64,000 nucleotides of DNA from Luteimonas sp. S4-F44 (GTDB taxonomy: Bacteria > Pseudomonadota > Gammaproteobacteria > Xanthomonadales > Xanthomonadaceae): NCBI RefSeq assembly GCF_022637415.1, contig NZ_CP093340.1, positions 682,001 to 746,000 of the forward strand, written 5' to 3'. The translations under genes and the position numbers were made by a program. A model generated the notes under the pieces. It was not told the origin of the DNA. It did not search any database and was given only the letters and a program-made list of their open reading frames with translations. This document shows, piece after piece, positions 13,668-24,038 of this stretch (the first letter of the stretch is position 1; every line of letters begins with the position of its first letter).

Positions 13668-14018
13668 ATGAATCCCTGTTCAACGTGTTTCTGCGGGCTG
13701 GAAAGCGCAGAGCTGCATATCGAGCGCGTCGCCGCTCGCGTGGCGGCGGGTGGCCACCATATCGCCGAGGGCAAGATCCGCGGTCGTTACGATTCGTCCA
13801 GGGCAAACCTGATCGCGCTGATGCCCTATCTGGCAACGCTGCGCGTTTACGACAACGGTCGACCGCCGGATGCCGACGGCTGCGTTGAACCGCTGCTCGT
13901 TTTGGACATGGGCCGCGAGGGCATTGGCTACCCAGTGACGCCCGAGGATCTGGCGCAAACCCCACAATGGGCGAAGGCGATCGTCATGGCCGCCTTGGAC
14001 GTACATTCGCCTGTCTGA
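13668..14018 (+). pseudogene. 5'-truncated zeta-toxin-like P-loop kinase remnant
   Basis: 116 codons that resemble only the C-terminal half of zeta-toxin/AAA-type kinases found in proteobacteria. Recognisable: GLESAELHIERVAARVAAGG, then HHIAEGKIRGRYDSSRANL, an LRVYDNG segment and a terminal TPQWAKAIVMAAL. The Walker A nucleotide-binding half that should precede this is missing: only 37 bases separate the fragment from the yicC stop, and the frame stays open back to there. It therefore cannot act as a kinase on its own. No antitoxin gene is adjacent. Call by recall of the family pattern; a homology search would confirm the truncation point. Confidence 0.6.
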
Positions 14019-14193
14019 GCGGATAGGCATTCACTCGGATGATGCCTTGCAGGGTGTCGTCTGTGGGGATAGCAAGGCGTGGGGCCGATCGTCGGGAAGT
14101 GGCCGGGCATGTGGGTCAACGTCGCCAGATTTGGCCGGCCTTCCATCCGATCGCTGGGGTTGCGATTGCGCCCGGTTCACACCGCGCCATGCC

Positions 14194-17166
14194 TCAGAAC
14201 CGCAGGCGCGCGCCGACCGAGTAGTAGCGCCCCAGCACGTCGTAGTAGGCCGAGAACGCCGATGAGGCGGGCGGGCCCTTGTCGAGCAGGTTGTTGATGT
14301 TGGCGTAGAGCTCCAGGTCCGAGTCGGCAAAGGCCGCAGTCCGCATGCTCATGCCCAGATCGAAGTAGGTGACGCTGCCGATGTGGTTGTTGACGATGTC
14401 GACGGCCGAGTTGTAGTTGCCCGACGAGATGTAGCGGGCCCGCAGGTTGGCACCGAAGGTATCGCCGCGATAGGCGAGGGTGTTGGTCACGCGCAGCCGC
14501 GGGATGCCGGGGCCGGAGAACGCCGAGCCCTGGGAGCCGACGTAACTCAGCTTGACCTCGCCATCGTCGGTGGTCAGCTCATTGATCCAGGTCGCCAGCG
14601 CGCGCCACTGCACCCGCCCACCGGCCGAGGGCACAAGCCGCGCAGCCGGAAACGTGTAGAGGATCTCGGCGTCGATGCCGTGGGTCTTGTACTGGGCGAG
14701 GTTGACCGGCGTGGAGCGGATCAGCTCGATGCTGCCGTTCGCATCCCGGGTGATGCGGCCGCACAGCACCTGATTGCCGCGGGCGCAGCGGTTGACCACT
14801 TCCTGCACGCCCAGCGACATGATCACGTCGTTGATGGTGATGTCGAAGTAGTCGATCGAGATATCCAGGCCTTCGGTGAACTGCGGCGTCCAGGCGATGC
14901 CGAAGGTCGTGGTGTCGGCCTCTTCCGGCGTCAGGCCAGGATTGCCGCCGCTGATGACCTGGGCCTGCACGGTCTGCCCGGTGATGGGATCGGCAACGTT
15001 GTTCCAGCCGGTCAGCGCGGTGGTGAACAGCTCGGTGAGGTTGGCCGAGCGGATGTCGCGTGAGCGCGTGGCGCGTGCACGCAGACCCGGCAGGAACTCG
15101 TTGGTCGCGCCGGCCTTCCAGGACCAGATCGAACCGGTGGTGTCATAGTCGCTGATCCGCGCGGCGGCATTGAATTCAAGCTTGTTGAAACCGGGCACGT
15201 CGCGCACGAGCGGCACCAGGATTTCGCCGAAGGCTTCTTTCACGCGGAAGGCGCCGAACATCGAGGCATGGCTGAACGAGCGGAACGCGCCGGCCGTGTC
15301 GAGCGCGCCCGCGGTGCTCCGCTGCCATTCCCGACGCGCTTCCACGCCGAGCGCGACCGAGACATCGCCTGCGGGCAGGGTCCACGGGTCGCCCTGCAGG
15401 CTCAGGCCGCCGGCATCGAGCTTGATCAGCGTTTCCTGCGTGGGCGCGCCGGTGACGTAGGCGATGGCCTCGGCCGACGGCGAACCGCTGCCGAACAGGT
15501 TGATCGGCACGCAGTCGGTGGTCGGATCGGTCAGGGCCACGCGGCAGATCGGCTGGCCGGTCGTGGGGTCGAGAACCGAATCGACCGCACGCGCGTAGTT
15601 GTCGCGCAGCAGGAAGCCGGGATTGCGCATGTCCTGGCGGTACTCGCCGTGCGTGTAGTACGAGCGCCACGTCCAGCCGGCACCGAGCGCGCCGTCGATC
15701 GCCAGCGTGGCTTCGGTGGTCTTGCGCTGGAAATCGATCGTCGCGTACGCGAAATCGGAATTGAACCGCCCCATCTGGAACGACGACTCGCCGGCCGCGG
15801 CCAGCGCATCGCGTACCGGTGTGGGCAGGAACGCGTTGTCGGCAGAGATCCGCAGGCGCGTGCTGCCGCGGTTGTGGTCGCCGAACCAAGGGTAATCGTT
15901 GTACATCCGCGAATGCCGGACATCGAGCGTGAGCCGGGTGTCGCCGGTCAGGTCGAAGTACGCGGTGCCCATCGTGCTGTAGCGCCGCTGCGGGGTGACC
16001 AGCGGGCTGAAGTGGTCCGCGCTCGGGCCATTGCCGCCGACCATCTGCGTGCCGCCGACCTCGAATGGACGCAACGACCCGTCCGGTTCGAAGGCCTGAC
16101 CGGCGAGCGCGCCCGACAGGATCAGGCCGCCATAGGCAGCGTCGGCGATCGACACGCCATGGGTGAGCACGAAACGGCCGTTGCCGTCAGGCAACGTCGC
16201 CCAGCCTGCGACGCCCGGCCGGCGCGATCTGGGCACCAGGCCATCGTTGTCGAGGAATTCGGCGCCCAGGACCAGGTGGCCGCGGCCACCGAAGAGCTCG
16301 CGACCGAAGGCCGCTTCGAAGCGCCGCTCGTTGGCGTCGCCGCGATCGGAGATACCGAACTGCGTGCCGAGCTTGGTGCCGACGAAGGTCCGGTCGATGG
16401 CGATGTTGACCACGCCGCTGACCGCGCCCGAGCCCCACGCAGCCGAGGCGCCGCCGGTGACGATGTCCGCGCCCTGCACCATGACCGAAGGAATGGTGTT
16501 GAGGTCGTTGGTGCTGGAGAAGCGGCGGCCGTCGATCAGCACCAGGGTGCGGTTGACGCCAAGCGCGCGCAGGTCGACCGGCGCCGAACCGGCGTCGGTG
16601 TTGGTGCCGGTGGTTTGCGGCGAAACACCGGCGCGGAACTGCGGCAGATCGTTCAGCGCCGCGGCGATATTGGGCCGTCCGCCGACAGCCAGGTCCTGCG
16701 CGCTCAAGCTCGTGGTCGGCGTGGGCGCGTCGAAACCGGGGCGGTCTAGCCGCGACGACGAGGCCCGGACCTGCACCGCGTCGAGATTGGTCGCCGGATT
16801 ACCGGAGGTGGCACTGACGGCCGCGCCGGGCGCCCCGGCGCTGTCCTCGGGCAGACGGATCAGGATCGAGCCCGCCTCTTCGGTGACGTCCAGCGACGTG
16901 CCGTCGAGCAAGGCCTCGAATGCAGCGCGCGGCTCGAGCAGGCCGCTGACGCCTTCGGTACGCAGGCCCCGGACCTGGCGCGCCGGGTAGATCGCATTGA
17001 CGTCGAACTGCCTGGCGAGCGCATCCAGCGCGTCGGCCAGATCGCCGGCGGCGACCTCCACCTGGCGGGGTTCGGCCGCGATCGCGATCGGGGCCGACAA
17101 GACCGACAGCGCGGCGAGGACGGCAGCGTGGATGAGGCTGGATCGCAGGCGGTTCGAACGTGGCAT
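14194..17166 (-). CDS. TonB-dependent receptor with N-terminal STN signalling domain
   Basis: 990-residue outer-membrane beta-barrel transporter/transducer. Signal peptide MPRSNRLRSSLIHAAVLAAL... ending near residue 30 (APIAIAA), then an STN domain (about 32-107, starting VEVAAGDLADALDALARQF) which in FecA-type receptors contacts a FecR protein. The plug carries RTLVLIDGRRF and GSGAVSGVVNIAID; the protein ends with the aromatic VGARLRF typical of barrel closure. Start at ATG 17166 follows the signal peptide and an AGGAC-type ribosome site. The gene has its own copy of the module promoter. Neighbours on the same strand are an amidase, an S9 peptidase, FecR-like and FecI-like regulators, so the ligand is probably peptide- or amide-like (inference). 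Confidence 0.93.
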   Translation of the reverse strand: MPRSNRLRSSLIHAAVLAALSVLSAPIAIAAEPRQVEVAAGDLADALDALARQFDVNAIYPARQVRGLRTEGVSGLLEPRAAFEALLDGTSLDVTEEAGSILIRLPEDSAGAPGAAVSATSGNPATNLDAVQVRASSSRLDRPGFDAPTPTTSLSAQDLAVGGRPNIAAALNDLPQFRAGVSPQTTGTNTDAGSAPVDLRALGVNRTLVLIDGRRFSSTNDLNTIPSVMVQGADIVTGGASAAWGSGAVSGVVNIAIDRTFVGTKLGTQFGISDRGDANERRFEAAFGRELFGGRGHLVLGAEFLDNDGLVPRSRRPGVAGWATLPDGNGRFVLTHGVSIADAAYGGLILSGALAGQAFEPDGSLRPFEVGGTQMVGGNGPSADHFSPLVTPQRRYSTMGTAYFDLTGDTRLTLDVRHSRMYNDYPWFGDHNRGSTRLRISADNAFLPTPVRDALAAAGESSFQMGRFNSDFAYATIDFQRKTTEATLAIDGALGAGWTWRSYYTHGEYRQDMRNPGFLLRDNYARAVDSVLDPTTGQPICRVALTDPTTDCVPINLFGSGSPSAEAIAYVTGAPTQETLIKLDAGGLSLQGDPWTLPAGDVSVALGVEARREWQRSTAGALDTAGAFRSFSHASMFGAFRVKEAFGEILVPLVRDVPGFNKLEFNAAARISDYDTTGSIWSWKAGATNEFLPGLRARATRSRDIRSANLTELFTTALTGWNNVADPITGQTVQAQVISGGNPGLTPEEADTTTFGIAWTPQFTEGLDISIDYFDITINDVIMSLGVQEVVNRCARGNQVLCGRITRDANGSIELIRSTPVNLAQYKTHGIDAEILYTFPAARLVPSAGGRVQWRALATWINELTTDDGEVKLSYVGSQGSAFSGPGIPRLRVTNTLAYRGDTFGANLRARYISSGNYNSAVDIVNNHIGSVTYFDLGMSMRTAAFADSDLELYANINNLLDKGPPASSAFSAYYDVLGRYYSVGARLRF

Positions 17167-17181
17167 GGCCGTCCTCGGGTT

Positions 17182-17233
17182 CGGCTCGAAGGTGGAGCCG
17201 CTGATTGGAATGTCGAGCGAGCGCGCGCTTTCC
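17182..17233 (-). promoter_or_regulatory. Module promoter copy A (GGAA-N13-TCGAC plus hairpin), upstream of the TonB receptor
   Basis: Minus strand: GGAA (17233-17230), 13 bases, TCGAC (17216-17212), then a 6-bp hairpin CGGCTC/GAGCCG (17200-17182) and a GAGGAC ribosome-site region before the ATG at 17166. Same order and spacing as copies B and C. It resembles an ECF-sigma promoter by its GGAA box; the exact -10 is uncertain. Confidence 0.65.
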
Positions 17234-17276
17234 AGCAACGCGCGTGCGGGCCCGATTCCGGGCCCAGCGATGAAGG

Positions 17277-18818
17277 TCAGGCGTCGGTGTTCAGTGCCGA
17301 TGGGCGCCGTGCGGCGATCCACGGCGAGGCCTGTTCGTAGGCATGCGCGACCTGCAGCACGGCCAGGTCGGCATGCGTGGGCCCGATGATCTGCAGGCCA
17401 AGTGGCAGGTCGTCGGGTCCGCCGAACCCGGCCGGTACCGCCAGCGCCGGCACGCCAGCCATCGTCGCCGGCAGCGTCACCTCCATCCAGCGGTGATAGC
17501 TGTCCATCGGCGTGCCGGCGATCTCGCGCGGCCAGTGCTGCTCGACATCGAACGGGAACACCTGCGCGGTCGGCAGCACCAGGAAGTCGAATTGCTCGAA
17601 CGCCTTGCGGAAGGCCTCGTAGATCCGCGTGCGTCCGGCCTGCGCATCGGCGATGCGTTCGGGCGTCAGCTGTTGGAAGCCCTCGACCTCCCACAGCGCC
17701 TCGGGTTTCATCAACGCGCGCTTGGCCGGGTCGGCGGCGTAGGCACGCAGGTCGTCGCCCACCGACAGGTGGCGCAGGGTCACGGCGGTGCGCCACATCG
17801 CCTCGGCCGGTTCGTCGAGCGTGGCCGCGTCCACGCGCATGCCGATGGTGCGGAACGCCGAGAGCGCGCGTTCGCAGGCCTCGAGCAGACCGGCCTCCAT
17901 CGGCAGCGCGCCGCCCAGGTCGCCGAGCCAGCCGATCCGCCGGCCGCTCCAGTCGCGGGCCAGCGGTTGGGTGAAGACCGCCGGGTCGTCCTTGAGCGAG
18001 AACGGTGCGCGGGGATCGGCGCCGGCCTGCACCGAGAGCATCAGCGCGAGGTCGGCCACGGTCCGCGCCATCGGCCCGGCGGTGGCGTAAGTCTGGCTGA
18101 AGACATCGCTCGATGGAGCGGACGGTACACGCCCGAACGACGGCCGGAAGCCGAACACGTTGTTCCAGCCAGCCGGATTGCGCAGCGAACCGCCGAAATC
18201 GCTGCCGTCGCCCAACGGCGTCATCCGCAGCGCGAGCGCCACAGCGCTGCCGCCCGAACTGCCGCCCGCCGATTTGCGCGGGTCGTAGGCGTTGCGGGTC
18301 ACGCCGAATATCGGGTTGTAGCTGTGCGAGCCGAGCGCGAATTCCGGTACGTTGGTCTTGCCGGTGAAGATCGCGCCGGCGTTGCGCATCCGCGACACCA
18401 CCAGCGAATCGGCCGCAGGCACGTTGTCGCGCAGCAGCGGCGAGCCTTGCGTGCTGCGCATGCCGCGCACTGGCGCGGTGTCCTTCACCGCGTGCGGAAA
18501 CCCGTGCAACGGCCCGTGGAAGCGGCCCTTCGCAGCGTCCTCGTCCTGCGCCGCGGCCTGGCGCAGCAGCAGCTCGGGATCGACCGACGAGACGATGGCG
18601 TTGAAGCGCGGATTGAGCGCCGACAGCCGTGCGAGGTAGGCGGTCATCGTCTCGCGCGCGGACACGCTGCGCTTGCGGATCGCTGCCGCAAGGTCCACGG
18701 CGGACAGGTCCAGCACGTCCTCGCTCGGTTGCGCGAACACCGCGCCGACGCCGCCCGCCGCATACGCCGCCGCGGCGGCGGCCCCCATCTTCAATGCCGT
18801 GCGCCGAGTCATCGGCAT
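17277..18818 (-). CDS. Tat-type exported amidase (amidase signature family)
   Basis: 513 residues. The N terminus MPMTRRTALKMGAAAAAAYA is a twin-arginine signal (RR then K before the hydrophobic run), predicting periplasmic export. The Ser-cisSer-Lys triad of amidase-signature enzymes is intact: Lys in PHAVKDTAP, cis-Ser in SAGGSSGGSAVALA and nucleophile Ser in SDFGGSLRNPAG. The family hydrolyses amide bonds of varied substrates; specificity cannot be read. Start is ATG 18818 or the ATG two codons on (18812). The latter overlaps the stop of a 9-codon upstream reading frame, suggesting translational coupling. It has promoter copy B and lies between the S9 peptidase and the receptor. An 18-base GC-rich hairpin (17248-17265) follows the stop. 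Confidence 0.92.
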   Translation of the reverse strand: MPMTRRTALKMGAAAAAAYAAGGVGAVFAQPSEDVLDLSAVDLAAAIRKRSVSARETMTAYLARLSALNPRFNAIVSSVDPELLLRQAAAQDEDAAKGRFHGPLHGFPHAVKDTAPVRGMRSTQGSPLLRDNVPAADSLVVSRMRNAGAIFTGKTNVPEFALGSHSYNPIFGVTRNAYDPRKSAGGSSGGSAVALALRMTPLGDGSDFGGSLRNPAGWNNVFGFRPSFGRVPSAPSSDVFSQTYATAGPMARTVADLALMLSVQAGADPRAPFSLKDDPAVFTQPLARDWSGRRIGWLGDLGGALPMEAGLLEACERALSAFRTIGMRVDAATLDEPAEAMWRTAVTLRHLSVGDDLRAYAADPAKRALMKPEALWEVEGFQQLTPERIADAQAGRTRIYEAFRKAFEQFDFLVLPTAQVFPFDVEQHWPREIAGTPMDSYHRWMEVTLPATMAGVPALAVPAGFGGPDDLPLGLQIIGPTHADLAVLQVAHAYEQASPWIAARRPSALNTDA

Positions 18819-18838
18819 GCAAGCCGCCCCTGGTTCAT
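18809..18838 (-). CDS. 9-codon upstream reading frame (possible leader) of the amidase gene
   Basis: ATG at 18838 opens a frame encoding MNQGRLACR and stops at a TGA overlapping the second amidase ATG (ATGA). The ATG sits exactly where the module's ribosome site (CGGGGAC) places the true start in copies A and C, so ribosomes probably initiate here and reach the amidase by coupling. Whether the peptide itself matters is unknown. Confidence 0.4.
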   Translation of the reverse strand: MNQGRLACR

Positions 18839-18853
18839 GTGCGTCCCCGTGCC

Positions 18854-18903
18854 CGGCCCGGAAGGGGCCGTTGGCTGTGGAGTCGAACGAGCGTGCGCTT
18901 TCC
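18854..18903 (-). promoter_or_regulatory. Module promoter copy B, upstream of the amidase
   Basis: Minus strand: GGAA (18903-18900), 13 bases, TCGAC (18886-18882), hairpin CGGCCC/GGGCCG (18870-18854), then CGGGGAC and ATG. GGAAAGCGC and GCTCG match copy A almost base for base. Confidence 0.65.
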
Positions 18904-18945
18904 GGCTATCGATCTGCGTGCGGGTGCATCGAGGCGGTGGTCGCG

Positions 18946-21036
18946 TTACAGATGGCGCTCGAGCCAGCCCAGCACGCGTTCGAGCACGTCGCGTTCCTGC
19001 TCGCGCGCCTCGAACCAGTGCGGGCCGCGCGGATAGCGCACCATCTCCACCGGCGTGCCGTTGACCTGCAGCGCGCGATGGAACTGTTCGCCCTGCGAGA
19101 TCGGCACGCGCCGGTCGTCTTCGCCATGCAGCACCAGCACTGGCACTGCGACGTTTTGCGCGCTGCGGATCGGCGAGTTGCGGTCGTAGAGGTCGCGCTG
19201 CTCGAGCACGTTGCCGAAGTAGCCAGGCAGATACTCGTAGGGCACGTCGGTGGTCAGCGCCATCACGGCGGTGTCGATGACCGCCGCGCCGACGATCGCG
19301 GTGCGGAAGCGGTCGCTGTGACCGACCGCCCAGGCCGACAGGTAGCCGCCGTAGCTCCAGCCGCCGATCGCCACGCGTTCCGGATCGGCGATGCCCTCGG
19401 CCTCGAGCGCGTCCAGCCCGTCGAGCACGTCCTGGAATGGGCCATCGCCCCAGTCGCCGCGCGCCAGCGAGGTGAAGTCGTCGCCTTGCCCGTAGGAGCC
19501 GCGCGGATTGGGCAGCAGCACCGCGTAGCCACGCATGGCAAGCGATTGCGCCCAGTCGTGCCAGGAGCCCAGCCAGCCCGACAGCCAGGCGTCGGCCGGC
19601 CCGCCGTGGGCCTGCACCAGGGTCGGCAGCAGCGTGCCCGGTCGCCAGTCGGGCGGCAGCACGAGCACGCCATGGATCGGCCGGCCATCGCGCGAGCTTG
19701 TCCAGACGCGGTCGCGAACCTGGCCCAGCGGCCAGGCGTGGACCTGCGGATTGGTGTCGGTCAGCCAGGTCACGCGGCCGCCGCCCAGGACCTCGGCCTT
19801 CGACAACGTGCCGACCTCGGGTGGCTGCTCGGCACGGCCATGGGCCAGCGCGACCCGGCCGTTGCGCGCCAGGCTCAGGCCGCGGACGGGCCCCTGCAGT
19901 TCGACCAGTTCCACGACCGCGCCGTCGCCCGGATCGACGGCCAGCAGATGCGGCCGCACGCCGCGCAGGCCGATCCCGACCAGCGTGCCGTCGTCGCGCC
20001 ACTGCAATGTGCGCAGCGTGCCGGGCCATGCCGTTGCGAGCGCGACGTGGGTGTCGCTGGCCGGGGCATAGACCCTGCGTGTGGCGGTGTGCCCGTGCGG
20101 GCCGAGCTGTCCGTACAGCAGCCGCGTGCCGTCGGGCGACCACGCCAGCGGCCCACCGGAGGCACGCGTGGTGACCGTGCCCAGCATGCCGCCGTCCTCG
20201 GCCGAGACCAGCACGACGCTCGAGCGGTACCACATGGCGCCGAGGCCGACCTCGTCGGAGACCCGCAGTGCGAAGCTGCGGCCGTCCGGCGACCAGGCCA
20301 GGTCCTGGACCTGCAGGTCCGACGGGGTCAGGGCCCGGGCATCGCGGCCGTTCGCATCGCTGACCCACAGCCGCGTGAACTGCGCATCGCGCCCGACCTC
20401 GACCGCATCGTCCTTGCGTGCGATCCGAGCAGCGCGTTCGGGCGAGGGCGGGTCGATCGCCAGATAGGCCAGGCGCGTGCCGTCGGCCGACCATGCGAAG
20501 GCGGTGACGTCGCCGGCCGAGGTGGTCAGGGGACGCGGTATCGCGCCGTCGGCGGTCGTGGTCCAGACCTGGCTCGATGCCCGCGGGGCCGTCGTGTCCT
20601 CGTCCGGCGCGGGGCGCGTGGACAGAAAGCTCAGGTGCGTGCCGTCGGGCGACCAGCGCGGCATCCGGTCGGCGGCGGTGTCTGGCGCGGCGAGTTCCAC
20701 TGGCGCGCTGCGGCCGTCGCTGGCCACGCGCCAGATGCGGCGCAGGTTCGAATCGCCCGCCGGGCGCGGCGTCTCCACCGTGTAGGCGATGGTGGCCCCG
20801 TCAGGACTGATCTGCGGATCGCCGACTTCCTTGAGGTCGACGACCTGCGCCGCGGATGGCACGCCATCGCGTGCCTGCAGCGGCAGCGCGCAGGCCATCG
20901 CGATGCAGGCGCCAGCCGAGGTGCGCAACACCAGCGCGCGCAGCAGCGATCGGGCGCCCCGCGTCGTGCGGCGCTGCTGGGTAATGGCGGCGCGCATGGC
21001 CCTGCGCCCGCCGCAGCGTGGTTCGAGTGTCGGCAT
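18946..21036 (-). CDS. Secreted S9 family (prolyl oligopeptidase-like) peptidase
   Basis: 696 residues. A long N-terminal region with a hydrophobic segment near residues 35-55 (LRTSAGACIAMACALPLQA) looks like a signal peptide after a basic stretch; the second Met (MRAAITQQ) may be the effective start. Residues about 70-430 form WD/beta-propeller repeats (several SPDGT/SADGTR blades); the C-terminal alpha/beta-hydrolase has the nucleophile in GGWSYGGYLSAW, the Asp in HGEDDRRVP and the His in RGPHWFE. Such enzymes cleave short peptides, releasing dipeptides or acyl-amino acids. Preceded by promoter copy C and placed just downstream of the fecR-like gene. Confidence 0.93.
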   Translation of the reverse strand: MPTLEPRCGGRRAMRAAITQQRRTTRGARSLLRALVLRTSAGACIAMACALPLQARDGVPSAAQVVDLKEVGDPQISPDGATIAYTVETPRPAGDSNLRRIWRVASDGRSAPVELAAPDTAADRMPRWSPDGTHLSFLSTRPAPDEDTTAPRASSQVWTTTADGAIPRPLTTSAGDVTAFAWSADGTRLAYLAIDPPSPERAARIARKDDAVEVGRDAQFTRLWVSDANGRDARALTPSDLQVQDLAWSPDGRSFALRVSDEVGLGAMWYRSSVVLVSAEDGGMLGTVTTRASGGPLAWSPDGTRLLYGQLGPHGHTATRRVYAPASDTHVALATAWPGTLRTLQWRDDGTLVGIGLRGVRPHLLAVDPGDGAVVELVELQGPVRGLSLARNGRVALAHGRAEQPPEVGTLSKAEVLGGGRVTWLTDTNPQVHAWPLGQVRDRVWTSSRDGRPIHGVLVLPPDWRPGTLLPTLVQAHGGPADAWLSGWLGSWHDWAQSLAMRGYAVLLPNPRGSYGQGDDFTSLARGDWGDGPFQDVLDGLDALEAEGIADPERVAIGGWSYGGYLSAWAVGHSDRFRTAIVGAAVIDTAVMALTTDVPYEYLPGYFGNVLEQRDLYDRNSPIRSAQNVAVPVLVLHGEDDRRVPISQGEQFHRALQVNGTPVEMVRYPRGPHWFEAREQERDVLERVLGWLERHL

Positions 21037-21053
21037 GGAATGTCCCCGTGTCA

Positions 21054-21105
21054 GGCCCGGACCGGGGCCGCCAGCTGATGAGGTCGAACGATCGCGGGGA
21101 TTCCG
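21054..21105 (-). promoter_or_regulatory. Module promoter copy C, upstream of the S9 peptidase
   Basis: Minus strand: GGAA (21105-21102), 13 bases, TCGAC (21088-21084), hairpin GGCCC/GGGCC (21069-21054), then ACGGGGAC and the ATG at 21036. Spacing equals copies A and B. Confidence 0.65.
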
Positions 21106-21133
21106 GTAAGTGGGGTCATGTCGGTCGCGCGCG

Positions 21134-22126
21134 TCACTGGCGCGTGGTCAGCACGATACGGTCGTCTTCGGCCCGGGCCTGGACCGGGAAGCCCTGCTGG
21201 ATCAGGCTCACGAATGCATCGAGTTCGGTGGCGCGGAAGATGCCGCCCACGCGCAGCGCGCCGACCGCCGGATCCTCGACGACCAGCTTGCGGGTGTTGT
21301 AGCGGTTGAACTCGGCGATCGCCTCGGCCATCGGCGTGTCGCGGAACACCAACTGACCGGTGCGCCAGCTCAGATCCTGGGCAAGCTCCACCGGCGAGCG
21401 CGCCCGCACCAGCACCGCGTCGCCCTGCGTGCGCGCCGCCATGCCTGCCTCCAGCAGCGGGGCCTGCAGCACTTTGTCGGGGCCGCCTGCGGTCTCGATC
21501 CGCACCCGGCCTTCGGTGACCACCACCTGCACGTCGTCGCCATCGCGCCGCACCGAGAACGCGGTGCCGACGGCGATGATCCGCGTGTCGCCCGCTTCGA
21601 CGACGAACGGCCGGGCCGGATCCTTGGCAACCTCGAAGAAGGCTTCGCCCTGGCGCAGGCGCACGCGTCGGTCGTCGCCGGCCATGTCGACGCGCAGGCG
21701 GCTGTCGGTGTTGAGCGTCAGCCGCGAGCCGTCCGGCAGCGCCACCGCCTCCAGTGCGCCGATACGGGTGGCGTAGACGTCGTCGCGCGACCAGGACAAC
21801 TGCACCAGCGCGGCCAGGCCGACAGCGCAGACCACGCCGGCCGCGACCGCCAGGCCGGGCAGGCGCCAGCGCCGCGCGCGCGCCGGGAGATCCGGCGACG
21901 GCGCGGCGCGCACCGGTTCCGGCGCGGCGCCTGCTGGCCCCAGCAGCGCCTGCAGCCGGCCCACTTCCTGCCAGGCGCCCTTGAAGCGGTAATAAGCCGC
22001 CCGATGGCCGACCGACTGTGCCAGCCAGGCCTCGAGCTCGGCGGCGTCGCGCTCGCTCCAGGGGCCGTTGTCCTGCCGCAGCAGCCAGGCCGCGGCGGCC
22101 TGTTCGTCGCGTTCCCTATCGCCCAT
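21134..22126 (-). CDS. FecR-like anti-sigma/transmembrane regulator
   Basis: 330 residues from ATG 22126 (MGDRERDEQAAAAWLLRQD). N-terminal DUF4880-type cytosolic part (WLAQSVGHRAAYYRFKGAWQ) binds the sigma factor in this family; one membrane helix follows (about 92-113, LPGLAVAAGVVCAVGLAALV); the periplasmic FecR domain contains VRLRQGEAFFEVAKDPARPF and a C-terminal STN-like lobe (FRDTPMAEAIAEFNRYNTRK) that would meet the receptor's STN domain. It overlaps the sigma gene by 11 bases, indicating coupled expression. Promoter copy C lies after it, separating it from the structural genes. Confidence 0.92.
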   Translation of the reverse strand: MGDRERDEQAAAAWLLRQDNGPWSERDAAELEAWLAQSVGHRAAYYRFKGAWQEVGRLQALLGPAGAAPEPVRAAPSPDLPARARRWRLPGLAVAAGVVCAVGLAALVQLSWSRDDVYATRIGALEAVALPDGSRLTLNTDSRLRVDMAGDDRRVRLRQGEAFFEVAKDPARPFVVEAGDTRIIAVGTAFSVRRDGDDVQVVVTEGRVRIETAGGPDKVLQAPLLEAGMAARTQGDAVLVRARSPVELAQDLSWRTGQLVFRDTPMAEAIAEFNRYNTRKLVVEDPAVGALRVGGIFRATELDAFVSLIQQGFPVQARAEDDRIVLTTRQ

Positions 22127-22685
22127 GACCCGTTGCCATCCTTGTCCACGTCTCCTCAGTGTCACGATGTTCGCCCGACTTGCCGTACAGCGCATCGGCC
22201 AGCAAGGCGATGCCGCGCATGAGGTGTTTTTCCACAGTCGCTTCGGCGATCCCCAAGCGGCGGGCGATCTCCTTTTGCGGAAGATCCTCGATCCGGCGCA
22301 TCCACACGACCTGGCGACAGCGCGGCGGCAGGCGCCGGAACAGGGTCGAGAGGCGGTGCATCTGTTCGCGACCGGCGGCGCGCCGCTCCGGCGACAGTTC
22401 GTCGATGAGGACGTTCAGGCTGTCCACGTCGGCCAGCAGGTCGAAGGCCACGATGCGCTCGCGGCGCACGCGGTCCACCAGCAGCTTGCGCGCCACATCG
22501 AACAGGAACGCCTTGGGCGAATGCGGACGTTGGCGCTCGGCGGCCAGCAGGACGCGGATGTAGATGTCGTGCCGGATGTCCTGCACTTCGTTGGGGTGCA
22601 CCCATTTGCGCGCCAGGAAGCGGACGAGCGCGGCCTCGTGAGGCAGGATCTCGCGCTGGAACCAGGTCTCCAATGCAGTGTCCAT
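22116..22685 (-). CDS. ECF sigma factor, FecI-like
   Basis: 189 residues, sigma-70 family group 4: region 2 (HEAALVRFLARKWVHPNEVQ, DIRHDIYIRVLLAAE) and region 4 (RLPPRCRQVVWMRRIEDLPQ, then KEIARRLGIAEATVEKHLMR), with no region 1 or 3. FecI-type sigmas are activated when a loaded TonB receptor signals through FecR. Overlap with the fecR-like gene and the downstream receptor support that role here. It probably recognises the repeated GGAA-N13-TCGAC element found before three genes of this cluster (inference). No copy of that element in the right orientation precedes the sigma gene itself. Confidence 0.93.
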   Translation of the reverse strand: MDTALETWFQREILPHEAALVRFLARKWVHPNEVQDIRHDIYIRVLLAAERQRPHSPKAFLFDVARKLLVDRVRRERIVAFDLLADVDSLNVLIDELSPERRAAGREQMHRLSTLFRRLPPRCRQVVWMRRIEDLPQKEIARRLGIAEATVEKHLMRGIALLADALYGKSGEHRDTEETWTRMATGHGR

Positions 22686-22758
22686 CGCGCCGCCGGTCCA
22701 CGCTCCCCGCGCGGTTCGTCTCCGACGCTATCCCATGCGCCGGGCAAAATCGATTGGA

Positions 22759-22780
22759 GGAACCCGCCCGCTCGTTCGAC
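22759..22780 (+). promoter_or_regulatory. Fourth copy of the module promoter core, pointing toward gmk
   Basis: Plus strand: GGAA (22759-22762), 13 bases, TCGAC (22776-22780). It shares GCTCGTTCGACTCC with copy B but lacks the hairpin and ribosome-site parts. It is oriented away from the sigma gene and toward gmk. Confidence 0.45.
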
Positions 22781-22934
22781 TCCGGCTCGAATGGCCGACC
22801 GGCGGGCGATGGGCGCGCCCTGGCCTGCGCCACGCGACGGGCCTGCGCGTAAAGCGGTACGATGCGCGGCCTTCCGGGCGCCGGAGCCAGGCGTGACCCA
22901 TCGCGAACCCGCACCCCAGACCGCTGCCACGCCC

Positions 22935-23552
22935 ATGCGCGGCACGCTGTTCATCGTCGCGGCGCCGTCGGGCGCCGGCAAGTCGAGCATCGTCAACGCC
23001 TGCCTGTCGCGCGATCCGGACATTGCATTGTCGATCTCGTTCACCTCGCGCGCGCCACGGCCGGGCGAGCGTCATGCCGAGCACTACCACTTCGTCGGCA
23101 AGGACACCTTCCAGCAAATGATCGAGGCGGGCGAGTTCTTCGAACACGCGCTGGTGCACGGCGACTGGAAGGGCACCGCCCGTCAGTCGGTGGAGCCGCA
23201 ACTGGCTGCCGGCAAGGACGTGCTGCTGGAGATCGACTGGCAGGGCGCGCGGCAGGTCCGGGCGCTGGTGCCCGAGGCGGTCAGCGTCTTCATCCTGCCG
23301 CCCTCGCGCGAGGCGCTCGATCAGCGCATGCGCAAGCGCGGCCAGGACAGCGAGGCGGTGATGGCCCAGCGCCTGGCGGCCGCGCAGGAGGAGATGTCAC
23401 ACTACGACGAGTTCGACTACCTGGTGGTCAACGAGGACTTCGACCGTGCGGTCGCCGAGATGTGCGCGATCTTCAGCGCCAGCCGCCTGCGCCGGGAGCG
23501 CCAGGCCGAGCGCCATGCCGGGCTGATCGCAAGGCTGCTGTCGGGGCATTGA
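22935..23552 (+). CDS. gmk: Guanylate kinase
   Basis: Phosphorylates GMP to GDP. 205 residues from ATG 22935 (MRGTLFIVAAPSGAGKSSIV); the P-loop APSGAGKS is at residues 10-17, the GMP-binding SFTSRAPRPGERHAEHYHF follows, and LLEIDWQGARQV is the central strand. The open frame runs far upstream, but the P-loop position fixes the start. A TACGAT -10-like box at 22858-22863 probably serves it, and the fourth module promoter lies further upstream. Head of the gmk-rpoZ-spoT block. Confidence 0.97.
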   Translation: MRGTLFIVAAPSGAGKSSIVNACLSRDPDIALSISFTSRAPRPGERHAEHYHFVGKDTFQQMIEAGEFFEHALVHGDWKGTARQSVEPQLAAGKDVLLEIDWQGARQVRALVPEAVSVFILPPSREALDQRMRKRGQDSEAVMAQRLAAAQEEMSHYDEFDYLVVNEDFDRAVAEMCAIFSASRLRRERQAERHAGLIARLLSGH

Positions 23553-23608
23553 TTGGCCGGTTTTACCGGCGCCGCGTGGCGCAAGTGATTGATTCGTTGA
23601 GGCGCGAC

Positions 23609-23637
23609 TTGCGTGGCGGGCCACCCGGCCGTATCAT
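23609..23637 (+). promoter_or_regulatory. Sigma70 promoter before rpoZ
   Basis: TTGCGT (23609-23614), 17-bp spacer, TATCAT (23632-23637), 54 bases before the rpoZ ATG. Confidence 0.6.
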
Positions 23638-23691
23638 GCTCGGCCCTTTTCCCCGAATTCGCGCGACCCGTGCCGGTCGCCGGGAGCCCGC

Positions 23692-23994
23692 ATGGCCCGC
23701 ATCACCGTAGAAGATTGCCTGGAAGTCGTCGACAACCGCTTCGAGCTGGTCATGATGGCCGCCAAGCGTGCGCGTCAGCTCGCCAATGGCGTCGACGCCC
23801 AGCTCGACAACAGCGAGAACGACGACAAGCCGACCGTCCTGGCGCTGCGCGAGATCGCCGCGCGCCGGATCGACCAGCCGTTCATCGACGCCGTCGACAA
23901 GTCCGAGCGCGAGCGCAAGGAGCGCGAGGCGCTGGAGTGGGCGGCTGCCGAAGTCGTCGCCGACGAAGACATGGCCAAGGGCGACGATCTGTGA
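23692..23994 (+). CDS. rpoZ: RNA polymerase omega subunit
   Basis: 100-residue omega subunit that assists beta' folding and forms a (p)ppGpp-binding site on RNA polymerase (family knowledge). Begins [20 protein letters not shown], the conserved N terminus, with [11 protein letters not shown] and [13 protein letters not shown] in place. The acidic tail is typical. Own promoter upstream and a hairpin downstream, yet it keeps the conserved place ahead of spoT. Confidence 0.97.
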
Positions 23995-24038
23995 TCGAGC
24001 CGCGCTGACGCGTTCCGCGTCGTGCAATGGTGAGTCGA

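Follow-up and report, generated by a model that had tools for sequence, protein, structure and literature searches.

A FecI-type surface-signalling locus in Luteimonas with a candidate sigma promoter cassette at each of three genes

The described systems closest to the locus presented here are FecI-FecR-FecA of Escherichia coli, in which the order is extracytoplasmic function (ECF) sigma factor, FecR, receptor and the receptor promoter lies directly after fecR, and the AtxE2 lasso-peptide isopeptidase clusters, which have a TonB receptor and FecIR alongside. In E. coli, according to a review, one FecI promoter under Fur control serves fecABCDE. We analysed a window of 64,000 nucleotides from Luteimonas sp. 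S4-F44 (NZ_CP093340.1, positions 682,001 to 746,000; all positions below are those of the window unless a locus is named), which carries a minus-strand cluster transcribed in the order ECF sigma, FecR, S9 peptidase, amidase, TonB-dependent receptor. The cluster resembles the E. coli system in its order of sigma, FecR and receptor, and its sigma protein is 25% identical to E. coli FecI. It differs in that a candidate sigma site stands at each of three genes, hydrolase genes take the place of iron uptake genes, most sites are accompanied by hairpins and no Fur-like box was found. Taken as a whole, the locus is probably a FecI-type cell-surface-signalling regulon with one sigma promoter cassette per gene; comparison across genomes supports, with refinements, the proposal of the initial annotation that an ECF sigma factor drives each gene from its own promoter.

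That annotation had described a composite of GGAA, 13 bases and TCGAC, followed by a hairpin, a ribosome site and ATG, before three genes. GGAA-N13-TCGAC is indeed exact, on the minus strand, upstream of the receptor (17212-17233), the amidase (18882-18903) and the S9 peptidase (21083-21104). The spacing, said to be identical, is near-constant, with the hairpin beginning 11, 11 and 13 nt after TCGAC. A purine-rich GAGGAC or GGGGAC and an ATG are present in the modules, but in the amidase module the enzyme's own reading frame does not begin at this ATG, which opens a leader open reading frame of 9 codons (MNQGRLACR*; 18809..18838, minus strand) that overlaps the real ATG at 18818. The leader stop falls just within the amidase gene and an equivalent frame was seen by eye in three related genomes (labelled G665, G687 and L. 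suaedae, see below), an overlap that suggests translational coupling.

The bare pattern is not specific. Exact GGAA-N13-TCGAC is found 114 times in the single-contig genome of 3.69 Mb (23 for the reversed-pattern control), and the relaxed GGAAN{11,15}TCGAC occurs five times in the window against 2.4 expected, a count reached by 11 of 100 shuffles. The short pattern is thus common genome-wide, one half of what the initial annotation had named as speaking against its reading, and we rejected it as a marker of the regulon. What is special is a longer form. The conserved core extends to TTRCCGGAA-N9-TCGYTCGAC, for which the window holds four matches with up to three mismatches against 0.21 expected, and none of 100 shuffles reached four. 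An exact GGAAN9TCGTTCGAC occurs three times in the genome, each time at the locus (before the amidase, before the peptidase and at a fourth site discussed below), and allowing one mismatch adds the receptor site and four sites elsewhere. Measured against the long consensus, the putative sigma promoters on the minus strand are TTACCGGAA-N9-TCGTTCGAC for the S9 peptidase (21083..21109, no mismatch), TAGCCGGAA-N9-TCGTTCGAC for the amidase (18882..18908, one mismatch) and TTGCTGGAA-N9-TCGCTCGAC for the receptor (17212..17238, one mismatch).

Across 52 genomes of the genus, the long core with at most one mismatch gave 13 matches. Twelve lie at this locus, namely at the three genes in each of the window genome (G000), G665, Luteimonas sp. 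RC10 (G687) and L. suaedae (G255), the amidase and receptor sites of the window being found again, for the receptor at the same position, in the other three; the thirteenth is a stray match in G674. This one match aside, the long motif is restricted to genus genomes that carry the locus. By the sigma gene, the nearest named relatives are RC10 (98% identical) and L. suaedae (84%). In L. suaedae the gene order has changed to peptidase, sigma, FecR, amidase, receptor, and a site is kept at each of the three target genes, in support of a promoter per gene. These observations also bear on whether fecIR and the three genes form one operon in which the repeated sites would be inactive relics left by duplication. 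The shared strand, the short gaps (97, 127 and 110 nt along the cluster) and the failure to find intrinsic terminators in 17000-23000 fit such an operon; read-through is possible where no terminators separate the genes, and a FecI-like system in Stenotrophomonas has, by its published description, sigma, regulator and receptor in a single operon (PMC12772443). These points count against separate promoters. A search for sigma-70 promoters in 17000-23000 likewise gave none. A single operon is nevertheless improbable in our view, given that four genomes keep the sites while the spacers change and that the relocated L. suaedae peptidase gene retains a site of its own.

The promoter proposed for each gene extends well beyond the genus. 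In the counts that follow, the family is Lysobacteraceae, where NCBI places Luteimonas (Xanthomonadaceae in much of the literature). At E 1e-38, sigma homologues gave 99 matches in 90 of 297 family genomes. We compared 44 loci (40 family loci, L092 from the family, L091 from another family of the order, and two from Steroidobacteraceae), one of which, L125, ends before the receptor. At the 43 receptor-bearing loci, TCGTTCGTC is exact in 30 and present with at most one change in 36. For the logo and stem analyses 38 of the 43 were used; L135, L150 and L162 were left out as misses with no credible box, and L053 and L054 were grouped with the window's clade. The 38-locus logo consists of GGGGATTT and TCGTTCGTC at fixed spacing, with the 75 nt upstream otherwise unconserved. 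A blind search of the 297 genomes for GGGATT-N8-TCGTTCGTC found 63 sites in 61 genomes (reversed control, 0), and 56 of them follow a sigma gene on the same strand at a distance of 1,046-1,612 nt. Two more, in G202 and, on a separate contig, in G016, stand at fecR-receptor junctions, which brings the total to 58 of 63; the remaining five, one of them before an elongation-factor-Tu-like gene, lie away from FecI loci and weigh against a strict link. By genome, sigma gene and site occur together in 58, the sigma gene alone in 32, the site alone in three and neither in 204 (Fisher p = 2e-34, uncorrected for relatedness). In nine distant FecI-like loci from the class, of about 27-35% identity (L176-L184, 3.1-3.5 kb each), TCG[TC]TCG[AT]C was not found.

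A pair of conserved boxes, set at constant spacing and linked across genomes to a sigma gene, agrees with the ECF-type promoter originally suggested, and by its sequence the window promoter is homologous to the promoter of the family's fecR-receptor junction. The motif occurs upstream of genes in both orientations, as an operator for some other regulator might. We regard such an operator as very improbable: the motif is non-palindromic with fixed spacing, it tracks the sigma gene across genomes, and its inverted copies precede a real divergent gene in 28 loci. Dependence on the sigma factor would be the better account, and the boxes define a consensus sequence for a sizeable FecI-like group within the family. 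Three further observations may be recorded here. At L190 (G202; 241-754) the sigma gene seems to be split over two frames, with the receptor promoter and hairpin present; at L192 (2953-2975, minus strand) a perfect GGGATT-N8-TCGTTCGTC stands some 50 nt before the elongation-factor-Tu-like gene, so labelled by eye from its N-terminus, without a stable hairpin; and at L177 (2172-3494), which belongs to another family and is only a distant FecI-like locus, the sigma gene has an amidase-signature neighbour (28% identity) and the motif is absent.

How one sigma factor may have come by several such sites is best seen in L. suaedae. Its locus holds three copies of a 98-nt repeat, of which two match the reference copy at 69% and 84% identity, and two copies of another repeat, of 68 nt (85% identity). 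In the alignment, the reference copy spans the end of the genuine fecR, and the extra copies of this fecR tail lie before the peptidase and the receptor; we read these extra fecR 3' ends as a promoter and a piece of fecR duplicated together. Over 27 nt, the L. suaedae modules share 93% identity among the three, compared with 77% for orthologous modules taken from L. suaedae and the window genome, a difference that points to recent events of copying or conversion in the L. suaedae lineage. Weighing against a general copying signal, the closer pair G000-G665 has orthologous modules at 89% and paralogous ones at 77%, so that the signal depends on L. suaedae; before the window's amidase and receptor no trace of a fecR tail was seen by eye. 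The sigma proteins of Peristeroidobacter soli (Steroidobacteraceae) and a Steroidobacter metagenome-assembled genome (MAG) are 69% and 72% identical to that of the window. The first receptor in both loci has the module, and the second has it too, with three mismatches in the Steroidobacter MAG and as judged by eye in Peristeroidobacter.

The window box has an unexpected counterpart in E. coli K-12, where TTCTCGTTCGACTCATAGC precedes the Shine-Dalgarno sequence of fecA and matches it letter for letter over TCGTTCGAC (L163 6217-6225, minus strand); TCATAGC follows directly. This element sits between the classical fecA -10 and the start codon. The review locates the fecA Fur box between -36 and -17, and according to it transcription drops strongly when the region past the start is mutated. 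Counting from an A+T-rich Fur-like stretch, the reported start would fall a few bases before TCGTTCGAC, which puts the element apparently downstream of it and counts against a start after the box. Because of this conflict, the start "just after TCGAC" proposed in the initial annotation is best treated as a prediction, with fecA as a counter-example. In an E. coli-like register, the upstream box of the family would be the -10, TCGTTCGAC would lie in the first transcribed bases and transcription would start before it. Besides fecA itself, one of the four loci nearest E. coli FecI fits this register, since L188 (42% identical) carries the box with one mismatch, TCGTTCGAT.

We nevertheless consider an E. 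coli-like register for the family promoters rather unlikely. The 38 loci show no third conserved box upstream, and the E. coli register was itself deduced from the text of a review. Moreover, the RpoE4-dependent sorT promoter of Sinorhizobium meliloti (ECF26) has a start determined by two methods, with GGGAATTTT...CGTC about 10 nt before it by our count (PMC6180224), which favours CGTC as the -10. Its boxes resemble those of the window, whereas their spacing is about 2-3 nt longer, again by our count, and the sigma factor belongs to another group. Two readings of the shared element follow. For the family's promoters we favour the one in which the E. coli boxes were placed a box too far upstream, with TTGTCC as the true -35 and the true -10 contained in TCGTTCGAC; the clearly less favoured one is that the box is a downstream element of FecI promoters generally. 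The comparison opens to direct test a long-standing puzzle, the "downstream region" that the E. coli fecA promoter requires. The literature searched yielded no report of FecI together with TCGTTCG.

Each promoter of the window is followed by a putative 5' untranslated region (UTR) hairpin, all on the minus strand: CGGCTC/GAGCCG with a 7-nt loop for the receptor (17182..17200; stem search and folding), CGGCCC/GGGCCG with a 5-nt loop for the amidase (18854..18870; stem search) and GGCCC/GGGCC with a 6-nt loop for the S9 peptidase (21054..21069; stem search). The shared hairpin of the initial annotation holds in so far as 33 of 38 family loci have a stem at a fixed distance from the promoter, and does not hold as a constant feature of the window's clade, where it varies more than the promoter. 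Stems of at least 5 bp follow the promoter in 35 of the 38 family loci, against 21.1 expected from shuffling and 22 of 38 for the upstream control, 33 of them beginning 10-15 nt past the box. Folding z averages -0.97 over 39 sequences (those of the 38 loci and L054) and +0.07 over 195 control windows. Stem letters vary while pairing is retained (GGCGC/GCGCC, GGTGC/GCACC, GGCAC/GTGCC; CGGC/GCCG to CGGT/ACCG). In a model-fitted alignment of 46 matches, at least six of them off-site, 75.9% of cells pair, against a maximum of 43.4% when the register is slid, and 4 of 500 shuffles reach the covariation score. A sequence-only alignment of 13 modules from the window's clade and Steroidobacteraceae, which excludes the L. 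suaedae peptidase module, has 96.2% of cells paired and less pairing in slid registers; none of 500 shuffles reached its covariation score, the rows being closely related. Covariation support for the hairpin is modest. The family covariance model gave 12 matches in 11 of 61 relatives, ten of them at FecR-receptor loci.

Alternatively, the hairpin could be a functionless by-product of G+C-rich 5' UTRs, with the promoter alone mattering. Several results lean this way and against a conserved hairpin. In the window's clade the excess of stems is weak (10 of 14 modules, 6.5 expected, upstream control 11 of 14), and the S9 modules of RC10 and L. suaedae are without a 5-bp stem. RNAalifold predicted no pairs from the sequence-only family alignment, and two of five covariation measures for the 13 modules fall within the shuffle range (reached by 135 and 463 of 500). 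The family covariance model recovered only the S9 module among those of the window (E 0.008), the others not at E 1, and gave no match in the window genome at E 0.01. The two Steroidobacteraceae modules, for their part, have no 5-bp stem and 4 bp by eye. The fixed position in 33 of 38 loci, the compensatory stem changes and the poorer pairing of slid registers speak for a selected structure, and we judge a mere by-product unlikely, if with some weight. A functional hairpin would most likely protect the 5' end of the mRNA and keep the ribosome site open. No Rfam match reached the gathering score in 12 loci (147,371 bases), and none of five sub-threshold matches in window 14000-24000 lies at the hairpins. 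The literature searched on a 5' UTR hairpin with a TonB receptor in Xanthomonas, and on ECF sigma together with TonB-dependent receptors in Luteimonas, returned in each case an unrelated match only.

A fourth site, TTGGAGGAA-N9-TCGTTCGAC (22754..22780, plus strand, two mismatches), is divergent, standing before the sigma gene and facing a gene that we label guanylate-kinase-like by eye from its sequence. In 35 of 48 loci, an inverted copy of GGAW-N9-TCGTTCGWC scoring at least 11 of 13 precedes the sigma gene by 44-175 nt, compared with 1 of 48 for the same strand and 52 of 960 random windows. A divergent S51-type gene adjoins the sigma gene in 39 of the 48 (for example L091 8070-9083, minus strand), and the inverted site is present in 28 of these 39 and in seven of the nine loci without the gene (L150, L156, L162, the two Steroidobacteraceae, the window and the three relatives that share its locus). 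All ten divergent proteins sampled are Peptidase_S51. Four compared with NCBIfam had cyanophycinase as best or second-best match at 92-106 bits, below the cut-off of 126.6; the solved relatives found for the L091 protein are cyanophycinases only, and the L092 protein is fused to a beta-aspartyl (isoaspartyl) peptidase-like domain. Given such inverted sites in relatives with the divergent enzyme, we take the fourth site as the likely remnant of a divergent promoter after loss of its gene. The FecI-FecR-receptor loci of the family that have a divergent cyanophycinase-like gene resemble the window in a homologous sigma factor (41-55% identical), promoter, hairpin and inverted site before the sigma gene; unlike the window, with three direct sites and no divergent enzyme, they usually have one receptor site and one divergent site. 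Inverted copies read TTGSAGGAW and direct ones mostly TTRCCGGAA, the former at window 22754-22780 (plus strand), L054 9321-9347 and 7762-7788, and L053 8465-8491; those of Steroidobacteraceae aim antisense into upstream genes. The part of the matching literature that was searched held no co-mention of cyanophycinase and FecI.

The cyanophycinase-like enzymes of relatives, together with the peptidase and amidase of the cluster, point to peptide or amide scavenging, and the function of the regulon is most likely periplasmic peptide or amide breakdown. Control by iron and Fur was rejected: in the four upstream regions no Fur-like box was found, the best match being 9/19 with a shuffle mean of 9.1 (consensus from PMC1790865, according to which Xanthomonas campestris fecI carries a Fur box). 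The AtxE2 clusters likewise have a peptidase beside a receptor and FecIR, as the window has its S9 peptidase, whereas the solved chains closest to the S9 protein are other S9 peptidases, with AtxE2 weaker. Its best NCBIfam match is NF033523 (AtxE2 lasso isopeptidase) at 176.3 bits, far below the cut-off of 400, and identity as an AtxE2-type isopeptidase was rejected.

Based on these comparisons, we propose the following hypothetical scheme, in which (i) the receptor would sense a ligand and FecR would relay the signal; (ii) the ECF sigma factor would initiate a separate transcript for each of the three genes, receptor, amidase and S9 peptidase; (iii) each gene would be served by a cassette of the two-box promoter TTRCCGGAA-N9-TCGYTCGAC, mostly a hairpin at the mRNA 5' end, a Shine-Dalgarno sequence and a start codon; and (iv) this cassette would go back to the junction of fecR and receptor in an older system found across the family, whose divergent promoter would serve a cyanophycinase-like enzyme that is absent from the window's clade, and copying of the cassette would have put peptidase and amidase under sigma control. 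Such a locus lets one follow in sequence how a surface-signalling sigma factor with one or two targets might gain more, through copying of the receptor promoter with its leader, and it ties a FecI-like group to cyanophycinase-like enzymes and not to iron. In its fullest form, which we advance tentatively and hold to be somewhat doubtful, the proposal is that one FecI-type sigma lineage possesses a portable promoter-hairpin-ribosome-site cassette with a hitherto undescribed 5'-UTR hairpin, copied via the fecR-receptor junction and recruiting hydrolases to a peptide-scavenging, originally cyanophycin-related regulon, with the shared TCGTTCGAC possibly shifting the classical E. coli fecA register.

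The genes themselves, all on the minus strand, are assigned as follows. The FecI-like sigma factor (22116..22685, 189 aa) matches Sigma70_r2 and Sigma70_r4_2 over cut-off; in the profile search only regions 2 and 4 were recognised, region 3 giving no match. The FecR-type anti-sigma factor or regulator (21134..22195, the open reading frame from its first ATG) matches FecR (1e-22) and DUF4880 (1e-8) over cut-off, with FecR_C below it, and is the sole FecR match at E 0.001 in the window genome. The S9 (prolyl-oligopeptidase family) peptidase (18946..21036) matches Peptidase_S9 at 3.5e-51 and the amidase-signature enzyme (17277..18818) matches Amidase at 1.4e-94. The TonB-dependent receptor (14194..17166, 990 aa) has barrel and plug over cut-off and an N-terminal STN-like domain: the STN match (E 2.6e-4, 21.2 bits) is below the cut-off of 28.4, and residues 22-175 align to the ferripyoverdine receptor 5odw (E 3.2e-7). 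Near the end of locus L054, another match to the long motif lies at 19942-19968 (plus strand, three mismatches). By eye, the N-terminus of the S9 peptidase resembles an export signal, and the TRRTALK of the amidase N-terminus reads like a Tat signal.

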